From contig JADBJK010000024.1 in the NCBI GenBank assembly GCA_014874485.1, forward strand, positions 1-64,000: a stretch of DNA of 64,000 nucleotides, given 5' to 3'. This document shows positions 2,386 to 6,729 of the stretch, in pieces. How positions within the stretch are numbered: the first letter of the stretch is position 1; each line of letters starts with the position of its first letter. The stretch is from Chloroflexota bacterium. GTDB taxonomy: Bacteria; Chloroflexota; Anaerolineae; DTLA01. A model generated the notes under the pieces. The model was not told the DNA's origin. It did not search any database and was given only the letters and a program-made list of their open reading frames with translations. A program made the position numbers and the translations under genes.

Positions 2386-2417
2386 GTCAGTCCGGTGTCA
2401 GTCGCATGTGCTATTGT
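2386..2417 (+). promoter_or_regulatory. SARP-type operator/promoter, site 1
   Basis: Two identical heptamers GTCAGTC lie at 2386-2392 and 2397-2403, 4 bp apart and so on an 11-bp period. An 8-bp gap then leads to the -10-like hexamer TATTGT at 2412-2417. Heptamer repeats with a 4-bp spacer, ending 8 bp before the -10 box, are the published layout of SARP binding sites. There is no recognisable -35 box apart from the repeats, as expected for SARP-dependent promoters. The downstream gene starts at 2457. Confidence 0.65.
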
Positions 2418-2456
2418 GGCGCTGACGATGGCCACTCTCGTCTGACAGGCGGTCTT

Positions 2457-2720
2457 ATGCGAACAACCCAGACGTATGTTTTGCGCCTACTGGTGGACAA
2501 TGAATGCCCTGCGGAACTGCGGGGGATTCTGGTTTCCGTTGCGGACAACGCGGAATACCCGTTTGCCGACGCCGAGGCGCTGCTGGCCCTGCTGCGCCAT
2601 GTGGCGGGGGCCGGAGAGGGTTCGGAAGAGGACAAGCGAGGGGTACCTAATGTAGGCCAATCAAGGGAGCCCGGTGGCCTCACGGAGCCGCACGGGAAAG
2701 GAGGCGATACTGGAGATTAG
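2457..2720 (+). CDS. Small conserved-type hypothetical protein under SARP-like control
   Basis: An 87-residue protein. The first 50 residues look like a compact alpha/beta fold (start MRTTQTYVLRLLVD, then a region ending ALLALLRHV). Small proteins of this style accompany BTAD regulators in Chloroflexota, in my recollection; the function is unknown. The C-terminal 35 residues are polar and look disordered. An upstream in-frame ATG at 2406 is disfavoured because it would lie before the predicted transcription start (about 2424). The RBS is weak. Confidence 0.6.
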   Translation: MRTTQTYVLRLLVDNECPAELRGILVSVADNAEYPFADAEALLALLRHVAGAGEGSEEDKRGVPNVGQSREPGGLTEPHGKGGDTGD

Positions 2721-2741
2721 GTACTGGTGAAGCGCGATAGT

Positions 2742-2773
2742 GTCAATTCTGTGTCGGTCCGATGGTGCAGAAT
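2742..2773 (+). promoter_or_regulatory. SARP-type operator/promoter, site 2
   Basis: Imperfect heptamers GTCAATT (2742-2748) and GTCGGTC (2753-2759) are separated by 4 bp. An 8-bp gap leads to CAGAAT at 2768-2773. Spacing is identical to site 1 at 2386-2417, and both begin with a shared GTGTC core. Transcription would start near 2780, just before the RBS of the zinc-ribbon gene at 2806. Confidence 0.55.
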
Positions 2774-2805
2774 CCTGTTACGGGATTCCATAAGGAGGTA
2801 GAGCG

Positions 2806-3249
2806 ATGCCGTACTGTCCGAGTTGTGGTGCGAAGAACAAAGATGGCGCTCGGTTCTGCGAGGCGTGTGGCGCGCCGCTGGCCGTCGCCGCTGCGCCAAA
2901 TCCGCCAGCCGCCCCGGCCCAGACCCCGGCGGCCGCCCAGTCGTTCGGGAGCGCCAAAGGTCTGATTATCGCCGCAGCGGCCATCTATGCCTTCACGGCG
3001 CCCCTGGCCGTTTTCGCGGGCCCCATTGGCTTCATTACGGCGCTCCTTGCCCTCGGTGTGGTTCTTCTCCTGGCGTACGAACCGCTCCGCAAGGGCAATG
3101 TGGGTGCGGCAAAGACCGGAGTCTTGATCGGCGCCGGGCTGGCGATACTCTACACGCTGATAGACTTCGCTATGGGAGCGCCGCTCGCGGCCGTACTGAA
3201 TCTTGCCGCCGGGGTGGCTCTGGCTGTGGCCTACATGCAACTGAAGTAG
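2806..3249 (+). CDS. Zinc-ribbon membrane protein
   Basis: A 147-residue protein. Residues 4-24 form a double-CxxC zinc ribbon (CPSCGAKNKDGARFCEACG), followed by a Pro/Ala linker to about residue 45. Three or four hydrophobic membrane segments follow, ending in LAVAYMQLK. The start is fixed by AAGGAGGTAGAGCG directly before ATG. No enzymatic motif is visible. Proteins of this layout are common in Chloroflexota and usually unassigned; two more occur in this window at 23296 and 33431. It probably belongs to the regulon of the SARP-like protein just upstream. Confidence 0.75.
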   Translation: MPYCPSCGAKNKDGARFCEACGAPLAVAAAPNPPAAPAQTPAAAQSFGSAKGLIIAAAAIYAFTAPLAVFAGPIGFITALLALGVVLLLAYEPLRKGNVGAAKTGVLIGAGLAILYTLIDFAMGAPLAAVLNLAAGVALAVAYMQLK

Positions 3250-3337
3250 GCCGCCGCTTCGGGGTTGCCGCAACTGTCGGGGCTTGCCGTCGTGTCATGA
3301 CGGCCGCGGGCGCCAGCGGAACGGCTCCCTTCTGTTG

Positions 3338-3378
3338 CCCTGCCGTTCTCCCGTGTGCCAGGTGGGAGAACGGCAGGG
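3338..3378 (+). terminator. Strong hairpin, probable terminator
   Basis: A perfect 15-bp stem (CCCTGCCGTTCTCCC at 3338-3352 and its complement at 3364-3378) encloses an 11-nt loop, followed by a weak T/C-rich tail. It lies 90 bp after the zinc-ribbon gene. The rest of 3250-3441 shows no gene. Confidence 0.6.
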
Positions 3379-3441
3379 TCTTCCGATTGTCCCCATTCCT
3401 CTGTCCGGTGTCCGCTCATCGTGCGCCATTTCACAAGTGAT

Positions 3442-3470
3442 TTGCCATGTGGGCCAGAACGTGCTACAGT
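3442..3470 (+). promoter_or_regulatory. Promoter of the hydrogenase-like redox cluster
   Basis: TTGCCA (3442-3447) and TACAGT (3465-3470) are separated by 17 bp. The predicted start near 3477 leaves a leader of about 100 nt before the first gene at 3579. Confidence 0.6.
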
Positions 3471-3578
3471 AGCATGGCCTGTTCGGCAGGTGGCAGTCCC
3501 GTCCAGCGAAGTTTACATCATTCGCAGATACTCATGGTTTCGCAGGCGCGGTTCCCATCTCGCATCAAGGAGGTTGCG

Positions 3579-3842
3579 ATGATCACCGTTACCATCTGCG
3601 TCGGGAGTTCCTGCTCGGTGCGCGGCTCGGACGAGTTCGCCGATGCCCTGGAGCGGGAGATTGAGAAGAGGGGACTGGGAGACCGCATTCGTCTTGTGGG
3701 GGCTTTCTGCATGGAGCAGTGTTCCAAAGGCATTTCGGTGAAGGTGGACGACCAGCAGTACCGCGAAGTCCATTTCCTGGAGGCGGCCTCGTTCTTTGAG
3801 CGGGAGATTCTGCCTCGGTTGAATCGTGAGGAGTCGTCATGA
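3579..3842 (+). CDS. Thioredoxin-like [2Fe-2S] ferredoxin (NuoE/HndA C-terminal type)
   Basis: An 87-residue electron carrier. Cys7, Cys12, Cys44 and Cys48 match the thioredoxin-like [2Fe-2S] pattern (CVGSSC, then CMEQC). It is only the ferredoxin half of NuoE/HndA, with no N-terminal helical domain. The ATG at 3579 follows AAGGAGGTTGCG. Its last codons overlap the next gene by 4 nt (ATGA), so the two are translationally coupled. It probably passes electrons to, or senses redox state with, the hydrogenase-like protein that follows (inference from family and context). Confidence 0.85.
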   Translation: MITVTICVGSSCSVRGSDEFADALEREIEKRGLGDRIRLVGAFCMEQCSKGISVKVDDQQYREVHFLEAASFFEREILPRLNREESS

Positions 3843-5557
3843 CCCATTCGGTTGTCAGTACGAACGTGGCGCGGTGCCGCGACTGCTACCGGTGCGTGCG
3901 CAACTGCCCGGTCAAGGCCGTGCGAGTCCAGGGCGGGCAGGCGCAGGTGGTGCCCGAGTTGTGCATCGTCTGCGGCACGTGTGTCCGCGAGTGTCCCCAG
4001 GGTGCCAAGAGCGTGCGCGACGACCGCGACTTGGTCCGCGAGGCGCTGGCCGCGGGCCGGACGGTGGTTGCCAGCGTGGCGCCCTCGGCTCCGGCGTACT
4101 TCGGCATTCAGTCCTTCGCCCAGATGGAGCGGGCGCTGCGGGCATTGGGGTTCGCGGCGGCGCACGAGACCGCCTTCGGTGCGGAGATGGTCGGTCTGGC
4201 TCACCGGGAACTGGTGGAGGCCGAACCTTCGCGCTGGCCCATCATCACCTCGTCGTGTCCGGTGGTGGTCAACCTCATTGAGATTTACTACCCGGACCTG
4301 ATTCCGCATCTGGCGCCCATCGTCTCGCCAATGCTCGCCCATGGCCGCTGGCTTCGTCAACGCTACGGGGATAGCGCCTTCCTGGTGTTTATCGGCCCGT
4401 GCTTCGCCAAGAAGGGCGAAATCCACGACGAGGCGGTGCGTGGCGTGATGGACGCGGCGCTGACCTTTGGCGAGTTGTCCGAGTGGCTGGAGTCCGGCGG
4501 CATCGCCATGCCGCAACCTCCTGATGAGCACGAGCGGGTGCCCCGCGCCAATGCCCGCGCCTTCCCGGTTGAGGGCGGCCTTGTGGGAACGGCGAACCTG
4601 GATACCGACATCCTGACGAGCGAAATCGTTACCACGTCGGGCCTGGCTGCGTGCGAGGACGTGCTCCGTAGCATTCGGGCGGGCGGGTTGCAGGCATCTC
4701 TCGTGGAACTGATGGCGTGCGAGGGCGGCTGCATCAACGGCCCAGGCATGGGCAAGGACATCGGCGTGTACCTGGCCCGCCAGCGGGTGCTGGATTACGC
4801 GGCGAGGCGGCAACCCCAGCCGTTGCCGTCGCGGGCGGAATGGCCTTCCCTGTCCCGCACCTACCGCGACAAGAGCGTTCCGCTGCCTGAATTTACCGAA
4901 GAGCAGATTCGCGAGGTTCTGCACCGCGTGGACAAGTACACGCCCGAAGACGAACTCAACTGCGGCGCGTGCGGCTATCCCACGTGCCGCGACAAGGCCA
5001 TCGCCACGCTGCGGGGGCTGGCCGAGGCCACCATGTGCATCCCCTACACGCGCAAACGGGCGGAATCCCTGCGCCAGGTGGTCATGGCCGTAACCCAGGA
5101 CCCGGTCATCACCGTGGACACGCGGCTTCACATCCAGGACATGTCGCCCTCGGCCGAGGCGATGCTCCGCTGTGCGCTCCAGCAGATCATTGGCCATCCC
5201 CTGGACGAGGTGGCTCCGCCCGTTGTGTTGGAGGGCTTCCAGAGGGTGCGCCAGACGGGCCAGCCCATCATCCGCCAGCGCCTCACGCTCAACGGGCTTG
5301 TCGTGGAGCAGACCATTGTGGCCGTCAAGGACCAGAACCTCATCGTGGGGATTCTGCGAGATGTTACCGAGCGCGAGCAGCAGCGGGAGCAATTGGAACG
5401 CATCCGCGAAGAGACGCTCCAGCGGACGCAGGAGGTGGTCATCAAGCAGATGCGCGTGGCCCATGAGATCGCGCAACTGCTGGGCGAGACGACCGCCGAC
5501 ACGAAGATCATGTTGTCGCGGCTTGCCAAGTTGCTGGAGGAAGGGCAGGAGCCATGA
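3839..5557 (+). CDS. Sensory [FeFe]-hydrogenase-like protein with PAS domain (group C/D, HsfB-like)
   Basis: A soluble 572-residue iron-sulfur protein. Residues 8-55 hold two [4Fe-4S] motifs (CRDCYRCVRNCP, CIVCGTCVRECP). Residues about 65-330 are an H-cluster domain: L1 TSSCPVV, L2 FIGPCFAKKGE and L3 ACEGGCINGPG keep the four cluster-binding cysteines. The proton-relay cysteine of catalytic enzymes (TSCCP) is serine here. Residues about 375-410 carry another FeS motif (CGACGYPTC plus a distal Cys), followed by a PAS domain (about 415-525) and a coiled-coil tail. The missing relay cysteine and the PAS domain indicate a sensor rather than a bulk hydrogenase. It overlaps both neighbours by 4 nt, and the next gene is a PP2C phosphatase, the usual partner for signalling. 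Confidence 0.88.
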   Translation: MTHSVVSTNVARCRDCYRCVRNCPVKAVRVQGGQAQVVPELCIVCGTCVRECPQGAKSVRDDRDLVREALAAGRTVVASVAPSAPAYFGIQSFAQMERALRALGFAAAHETAFGAEMVGLAHRELVEAEPSRWPIITSSCPVVVNLIEIYYPDLIPHLAPIVSPMLAHGRWLRQRYGDSAFLVFIGPCFAKKGEIHDEAVRGVMDAALTFGELSEWLESGGIAMPQPPDEHERVPRANARAFPVEGGLVGTANLDTDILTSEIVTTSGLAACEDVLRSIRAGGLQASLVELMACEGGCINGPGMGKDIGVYLARQRVLDYAARRQPQPLPSRAEWPSLSRTYRDKSVPLPEFTEEQIREVLHRVDKYTPEDELNCGACGYPTCRDKAIATLRGLAEATMCIPYTRKRAESLRQVVMAVTQDPVITVDTRLHIQDMSPSAEAMLRCALQQIIGHPLDEVAPPVVLEGFQRVRQTGQPIIRQRLTLNGLVVEQTIVAVKDQNLIVGILRDVTEREQQREQLERIREETLQRTQEVVIKQMRVAHEIAQLLGETTADTKIMLSRLAKLLEEGQEP

Positions 5558-6729
5558 GGCTCTTCATTGAGGTCGCCTGGGACAGCCTGGCGAAGCACGG
5601 CGAGGAACTCTGCGGCGATTGCGTGCGTGTGGCCACCACACCCCAATCGTTCATCGTCGTGCTGTCCGATGGCCTGGGCAGCGGCGTGAAGGCGAACATC
5701 ATGGCCACGCTCACCGCAGAAATCGCCGCGTCCATGTTCCAGCGCGGCGCGTCGGTGGAGGAAGTGATCAGCACGCTCGTGGCTACCCTGCCCGAGTGCA
5801 GCGTGCGCAAACTGGCCTACGCGACGTTCGCGGCGCTTCTCGTGGAGCGCGGGCGCGATGCCTATCTGGTGGAGTACGACACGCCGCCCTTGATTCTGAT
5901 TCGCGGCGGGCAGATTTGGAGCCTGCCGCGCGTGGAACGGGAGGTGGAGGGGCGCAAGATTCACGAGGCGCACTTCTGGCTCCAGGAAGGCGACTATCTG
6001 GTGATGGTCAGCGACGGCTACGTCCATGCGGGCGTGGGCGGGCTGTACCGCCTGGGCTGGGGCTGGCAGAACATCGCCGTGTCGGTGCGGCGCTGGGTGC
6101 AGACGGGCGGGGATGCGCACAGCCTGGTGCGGGCGCTGTCCAACACGGCGATGCGGCTATACGATGGCAAGCCTGGCGACGACAGCACCGCCGTGGCGAT
6201 GCGCGTGCGGCGCACCGTCGTGGCGACCATCTGGACGGGCCCGCCCGCCGACCGCGAGCAGGACGCGCAGGCGGTTGCGCGGCTCATGAAGTCGCGGGGC
6301 ATCAAGGTCATCTGCGGCGGCACGACGGCCCAGATTGCGGCGCGGGTCCTCGGCCAGGAACTCAAGGTGGACTGGGTGCCGCCCAGCAAGCGCGGGAATA
6401 CCCCGTCGCGGGCGCGCGGTACGCCGCCCACGGCGCGGCTGGACGGCGTGGATCTGGTTACCGAGGGGATTCTCACGCTGGGCCAGACGGTGAGCCTGCT
6501 GGAACAGGCCAAGACCGTCCACGACCTGCCGCCAGGGGAGGACGCCGCCAGCCGACTCGCGCGGATTCTCCTGTCGGCCGACGAGATTCACTTCCTGGTG
6601 GGCACGGCCATCAATCCCAACCAGGTGGCGGATGTGATTCGGGGCGAATCCATGCGGATGCTGTACGTGAAGGAATTGGCCCGCCAGTTGGAGCAAAGGA
6701 ACAAATCGGTTACACTAGAGCGTATCTAG
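5554..6729 (+). CDS. SpoIIE/PP2C-type serine phosphatase
   Basis: A 391-residue cytoplasmic phosphatase. The PP2C/SpoIIE core spans about residues 1-225 with the metal-binding motifs LSDGLGSG, MVSDGYVHAG and GDDSTAVAM. Residues 230-391 form an extra alpha/beta region (CGGTTAQIAARVLG) also present in hydrogenase-linked SpoIIE proteins; its role is unknown to me. It overlaps the hydrogenase-like gene by 4 nt, implying joint output: the sensor could set phosphatase activity on an unknown phosphoprotein. The TAG stop is part of the CTAG end of the repeat element that begins at 6726. Confidence 0.85.
   Translation: MRLFIEVAWDSLAKHGEELCGDCVRVATTPQSFIVVLSDGLGSGVKANIMATLTAEIAASMFQRGASVEEVISTLVATLPECSVRKLAYATFAALLVERGRDAYLVEYDTPPLILIRGGQIWSLPRVEREVEGRKIHEAHFWLQEGDYLVMVSDGYVHAGVGGLYRLGWGWQNIAVSVRRWVQTGGDAHSLVRALSNTAMRLYDGKPGDDSTAVAMRVRRTVVATIWTGPPADREQDAQAVARLMKSRGIKVICGGTTAQIAARVLGQELKVDWVPPSKRGNTPSRARGTPPTARLDGVDLVTEGILTLGQTVSLLEQAKTVHDLPPGEDAASRLARILLSADEIHFLVGTAINPNQVADVIRGESMRMLYVKELARQLEQRNKSVTLERI

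Follow-up and report, generated by a model that had tools for sequence, protein, structure and literature searches.

The operator layout of SARP regulators has been described from Streptomyces. For example, in the AfsR–AfsS system of Streptomyces coelicolor, a large SARP is paired with an adjacent small gene, afsS, which is its direct target (PMC10972967), and 11-bp direct repeats overlap the -35 region with the 3' repeat 8 bp from the -10 element (PMC10936776, PMC10972967). Large SARPs such as AfsR carry their TPRs after the SARP unit, and EmbR of Mycobacterium tuberculosis has a C-terminal FHA domain (PMC10936776). In this study, we analysed a window of 64,000 nucleotides, which is the beginning of a 318-kb contig in a 3.74-Mb Chloroflexota assembly, and we believe that a regulator encoded near its start is, in all likelihood, a SARP-like activator of an adjacent gene of approximately 63 aa and of scattered genes for secreted and membrane proteins. 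At the contig start, short tandem copies of a GTTCTCTGCG-like sequence were seen at positions 60–150, and this is possibly where the assembly broke.

The regulator gene occupies positions 427–2376 of the forward strand, and a consensus scan placed a candidate sigma-70 promoter for it at 242–271 on the same strand (TTGCTA, 18 bp and TATACT, with TG before the -10). Its Pfam matches were TPR_12, Trans_reg_C (residues 428–480) and BTAD (residues 522–639), and no receiver domain was found in the Pfam scan. The initial annotation had placed the BTAD domain behind the TPR array, not before it, and Pfam and the structural model agreed with this order. Residues 2–397 form a TPR solenoid, and residues 403–640, encoded at 1633–2343 of the forward strand, form a SARP-like unit, in which an OmpR-type winged helix (approximately residues 403–500, recognition helix ALLHQATSALRRALEP) is directly followed by the BTAD domain, as in SARPs. 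The full-length AlphaFold2 model (pLDDT 90.9) brought up nothing but TPR proteins in Foldseek, and a separate model of the C-terminal unit was therefore made (pLDDT 92.7). AfsR (8k60/8hvr, E 8e-10), matched in its transcription complex, and EmbR (2ff4/2fez) were then the only close folds, and the next fold had an E-value more than four orders of magnitude weaker. The likeness of the unit to AfsR and EmbR was seen by sequence too.

The regulator thus shares with AfsR the wHTH–BTAD fold and a TPR module in the same protein, but the order is inverted, with the TPR array first and the SARP unit last, and there is no NOD ATPase domain. Against the AfsR equivalog of NCBIfam (NF053617), it scored 27.2 bits, below the curated cut-off of 1430. 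It shares the fold with EmbR as well, but carries an N-terminal TPR array where EmbR has its FHA domain at the other end. Since an N-terminal SARP unit, with extra domains on its C-terminal side, is part of the SARP definition drawn from Streptomyces, and the regulator has the opposite arrangement, we call it a SARP variant and not a canonical SARP.

Pattern scans of the forward strand located operator 1 immediately after the regulator gene, with GTCAGTC at 2386–2392, the spacer CGGT and GTCAGTC again at 2397–2403. Between the second heptamer and the -10 hexamer TATTGT (2412–2417) lie 8 bp (GCATGTGC), and TG at 2409–2410, just before the hexamer, makes it an extended -10. Operator 2 is degenerate, with GTCAATT at 2742–2748, the spacer CTGT and GTCGGTC at 2753–2759 on the same strand, followed after 8 bp (CGATGGTG) by the -10-like hexamer CAGAAT at 2768–2773. 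The initial annotation had reported both heptamer pairs with these positions, spacers and gaps, and the sequence confirmed them; nowhere else in the window is GTCRRTY-N4-GTCRRTY matched exactly. The direct repeats lie over the -35 region at an 11-bp pitch, and a pitch of 11 or 22 bp there is characteristic of SARP operators.

A search of the whole 3.74-Mb genome, which the initial annotation had proposed, gave seven matches to GTCRRTY-N4-GTCRRTY, and in 7/7 the 3' repeat stood exactly 8 bp from a -10-like hexamer, as in SARP promoters (TACACT, TAAAAT, TACACT, CAATCT, TATTGT, CAGAAT and TATACT). When the extended -10 was included in the consensus, site 1 alone in the genome matched it perfectly. 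Site 2, with four mismatches to the strict pattern, is weaker than site 1 and unconvincing if taken alone, which would suit the idea that the heptamer pairs are chance repeats; its support comes from the homologous promoter in G002 (GTCAGTTtcgtGTCAGTC, with an identical -10), which fits the consensus better. The counts also speak against chance. GTCAGTC-N4-GTCAGTC occurred five times in the genome (0.025 expected by composition), and five times with N8-TANNNT added (0.0001 expected). Exact heptamer pairs at spacings of 0–30 bp numbered five at spacing 4 and one at any other, and a reversed control of a slightly looser pattern had no match at up to one mismatch in the window's genome. Across 39 collected sites, an extended -10 (TGnTAnAnT) emerged, and TG was absent from every search by which these sites were collected. 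With these counts and this spacing preference, and with the ortholog-side conservation and the paralog control given below, we regard chance repeats as hardly conceivable. The relaxed pattern (up to two mismatches) was near background in every genome, and therefore only near-exact matches or matches adjacent to orthologs were counted. Matches in G055 and G371 were judged to be chance, and one in G032 (C121), which falls within an ABC-transporter permease gene, was also discarded.

The two genes downstream of the operators had at first been taken for a local regulon. This did not hold, as at least five additional promoters are found in other parts of the genome, and the predicted regulon is genome-wide, covering secreted proteins, zinc-ribbon membrane proteins and a kinase. 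The predicted target of site 2 (2806–3249, forward strand) encodes a zinc-ribbon protein with hydrophobic segments (Pfam Zn_Ribbon_1). Other sites precede genes for an M4-type secreted peptidase, an LRR protein, beta-helix and beta-propeller proteins, a lipoprotein-like protein (Lon_C match), zinc-ribbon membrane proteins and a kinase–TPR protein. SARPs of Streptomyces typically govern secondary-metabolite clusters, although this is not a mechanistic trait; here, no biosynthetic genes were recognised among the targets examined, of which those matched by Pfam were the M4 peptidase, LRR, zinc-ribbon and kinase–TPR proteins. At another zinc-ribbon membrane gene, the site was conserved in G000, G001 and G002, and the operator and -10 were conserved across these three genomes in promoters whose flanks had diverged.

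The small target gene at site 1 lies at 2457–2720 of the forward strand and belongs to a family (A3) of approximately 63 aa with the motif MRTxxTFILRLLVDxxEPxxLRG. Its conserved part spans approximately 2457–2639 (MRTTQTYVLRLLVD...LLALLR), and the remainder is a lineage-specific tail. The protein had no family match in Pfam or NCBIfam. The regulator was present in 24 of the 25 genomes with a strong copy of the small gene, and in 13/14 when the model sources were left out. Judged from this distribution, the 63-aa gene is a conserved putative partner of the regulator in an arrangement like that of afsR–afsS. The likeness to afsS is one of position and operator only: a small gene adjoins the regulator gene and stands under its predicted operator. 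In G014 and G024, the small gene directly precedes and overlaps a secreted-protein gene. In addition, a weak family member adjoins a different, larger BTAD regulator (G005:C188:3388-4516), and another stands divergently beside a regulator ortholog (G228:C70:5492-7735), so the partnership of the small protein may extend beyond the window regulator family.

The neighbourhood of site 2 has a history of its own. By blastn, positions 2675–4748 of the window were homologous to contig C59 of G002 (92%). The homology starts inside the tail of the small ORF, at the point where a secreted-protein gene ends in G002, and 2675–2722 (forward strand) is a remnant homologous to the 3' end of that gene. The homologous zinc-ribbon promoter of G002 has no regulator beside it. 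In one of the two lineages, a rearrangement either joined the regulator and the small gene to the zinc-ribbon gene or removed them from it; with the breakpoint at 2675, the proximity of site 2 and the regulator is therefore lineage-specific. Further downstream, a candidate sigma-70 promoter was seen at 3442–3470, the ORF at 3839–5557 resembles [FeFe] hydrogenase-type iron-sulfur proteins with a sensor-like later part, and a SpoIIE-like phosphatase follows it at 5554–6729.

Full-length or near full-length orthologs of the regulator were present in 35 of the 396 genomes of the class. A single-sequence search for related loci found no orthologs, but an alignment-based search did, giving ten orthologs in named records; these records are titled Chloroflexi or Anaerolineae, which places the family in Chloroflexota. 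The operator survey covered the 31 ortholog loci whose sequence continues for 150 nt or more past the regulator, among which three pairs are the same regulator in two collections. The initial annotation had named lack of conservation of the repeats in orthologous loci as evidence against it, and we found conservation: an operator of SARP geometry lay 3' of the regulator gene at 24/31 loci. At 18/31, a site within two mismatches fell in the next 400 nt after the regulator, where shuffled sequences led us to expect none. Two further operators (L154 and L161) overlap the end of the regulator gene (GTAAGTTttttGTAAGTC and GTAAGTGttttGTAAGTC), and four loci keep the geometry with divergent heptamers, namely GTAAGTC/GGCAGTG, GTCAATG/GTCAATC, GTTATTC/GTTATTC and GACAGGT/GTCAACC, the last two being weak against shuffles (P approximately 0.04). 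No adjacent operator was found at 7/31 loci (five distinct regulators); among the genomes concerned, G014, G120 and G394 have an operator elsewhere. As a control, 14.6 kb upstream of orthologs contained one site within two mismatches. At L167, a near-perfect operator (GTCAGTCacccGTCAGTC, with the -10 GAGAAT) was seen at most 600 nt upstream of the regulator on the opposite strand, directed away from it.

The exact motif occurred in 11/396 genomes, comprising 8/35 regulator carriers and 3/361 others (p 2e-7, genome relatedness ignored); without the genomes used for model building, the co-occurrence gave p 8e-4, again ignoring relatedness. The three other motif genomes were G001 and G002, both of the window's genus, and one whose match was judged to be chance. 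G001 and G002 keep perfect operators (loci L098, L099, L100 and L124), and orthologs of the regulator and the small protein were not found there. An assembly gap, loss or another reader could each be behind these sites. The operators may then be real and read by another BTAD regulator, with the window regulator either uninvolved or sharing the sites with further readers. Besides the window regulator, G000 encodes three strong BTAD proteins, and G001 and G002 share other BTAD proteins with G000. The large BTAD proteins of Chloroflexota in the same genomes (approximately 1,050–1,300 aa) also have a TPR-like region followed by a wHTH–BTAD part that aligns with the window protein, but they are approximately 400–600 residues longer, have a different recognition helix and have no such operators within approximately 1.5 kb. 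Likewise, 28 loci of other BTAD genes (110 kb) contained no site within two mismatches, and the recognition helices differ, as in the paralog common to G000, G001 and G002 (GFKVALNALNRALEP). On this control and the differing helices, the other BTAD proteins were rejected as sole readers. Since the operators also covary with the helix of the window regulator family, as described next, we consider a different BTAD reader quite unlikely and favour the window regulator.

When the helix ALLHQATSALRR was aligned to AfsR, its Q fell at the position of T88, which is one of two base-contacting residues in the cryo-EM structure of AfsR (PMC10936776). In the 27 distinct regulators whose operator is known, an H here was accompanied by G at base 2 of the downstream heptamer (8/8), and Q, R or T by T (19/19); residue and base each changed four times on a tree built with the helix columns left out. 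In regulators without this H, a proline three residues before the T88 position went with A at base 3 of both repeats (3/3 versus 0/17), each trait changing three times on the tree. Independent pairs on well-supported branches numbered two and three, all concordant and not significant alone. Because the covarying residues were picked post hoc, with the data already seen, and well-supported independent pairs were few, this apparent covariation is strong and not formally conclusive. In AfsR, it is R92 and not T88 that contacts the corresponding base (PMC10936776), and thus the contacts are not transferable one to one. Both repeats vary jointly, for example GTTATTC/GTTATTC with a different helix. 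This pair was seen at L173 (G218) beside the distinct recognition helix LALNTTFSELRR, and it may represent a natural specificity switch. Taken together, the comparisons argue strongly, if indirectly, that these operators are read by the regulator, and binding is predicted. The proposal that SARP-type operators outside Actinobacteria are served by an adjacent TPR-then-BTAD regulator is supported by this covariation and by the conservation at ortholog loci.

Pho boxes likewise consist of two repeats at an 11-bp pitch, have TGTCA in common and replace the -35 element. The repeats could therefore be Pho-box-like sites of a PhoB/OmpR-type response regulator, whose winged-helix fold class and pitch match those seen here, and the sites of AfsR and PhoP overlap in Streptomyces (PMC10972967). 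Against this, the gene at 427 lacks a receiver domain, the sites stand beside the TPR–BTAD gene in 24/31 loci and covary with its SARP-like recognition helix, the motif is nearly confined to regulator-carrying genomes, and no examined target of the seven sites resembles a phosphate-uptake gene. We consider a Pho-box origin very unlikely.

The system is very probably SARP-like in mechanism. By analogy with AfsR, two copies of the C-terminal wHTH–BTAD unit would bind side by side, as a dimer, to a pair of direct repeats (TGTCAGTC, 11-bp pitch), which would stand in for the -35 element. The bound dimer may provide a surface for sigma region 4 to dock on in place of the missing -35, as AfsR does (PMC10936776), and RNA polymerase would be recruited to the extended -10 (TGnTAnAnT) 8 bp downstream. 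A sensing or inhibitory role is likely for the N-terminal TPR array, and the neighbouring 63-aa gene and the scattered genes for secreted and membrane proteins would be switched on. The protein might instead bind these sites and repress or merely modulate, since a protein bound at these repeats could stand in the way of RNA polymerase. However, the exact SARP activator spacing, a -10 without a -35 element and the BTAD domain point to activation, and AfsR activates from the identical geometry, with repeats over the -35 and the 3' repeat 8 bp from the -10 (PMC10936776). We infer activation, and consider repression or modulation unlikely.

In a literature searched largely without subscription journals, we found no paper on a BTAD regulon in Chloroflexota. 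We believe that Chloroflexota probably have a SARP-type regulon of their own, with an inverted TPR–SARP activator, a dedicated 63-aa partner, scattered secreted and surface targets rather than antibiotics, and a code that can be read from natural covariation. It differs from the AfsR system in repeat sequence, in its surface and secreted targets and in phylum. Such a regulon would imply that the SARP promoter mechanism is older or wider than Actinobacteria. If this is true, SARP replacement of the -35 element would extend to another phylum with the domain order reversed, and a regulator family and an unnamed small protein of largely uncultivated bacteria would gain a function. Naturally occurring combinations of helix residue and operator base would open SARP specificity to direct testing, and a phylum with few known regulons would gain a usable promoter rule.
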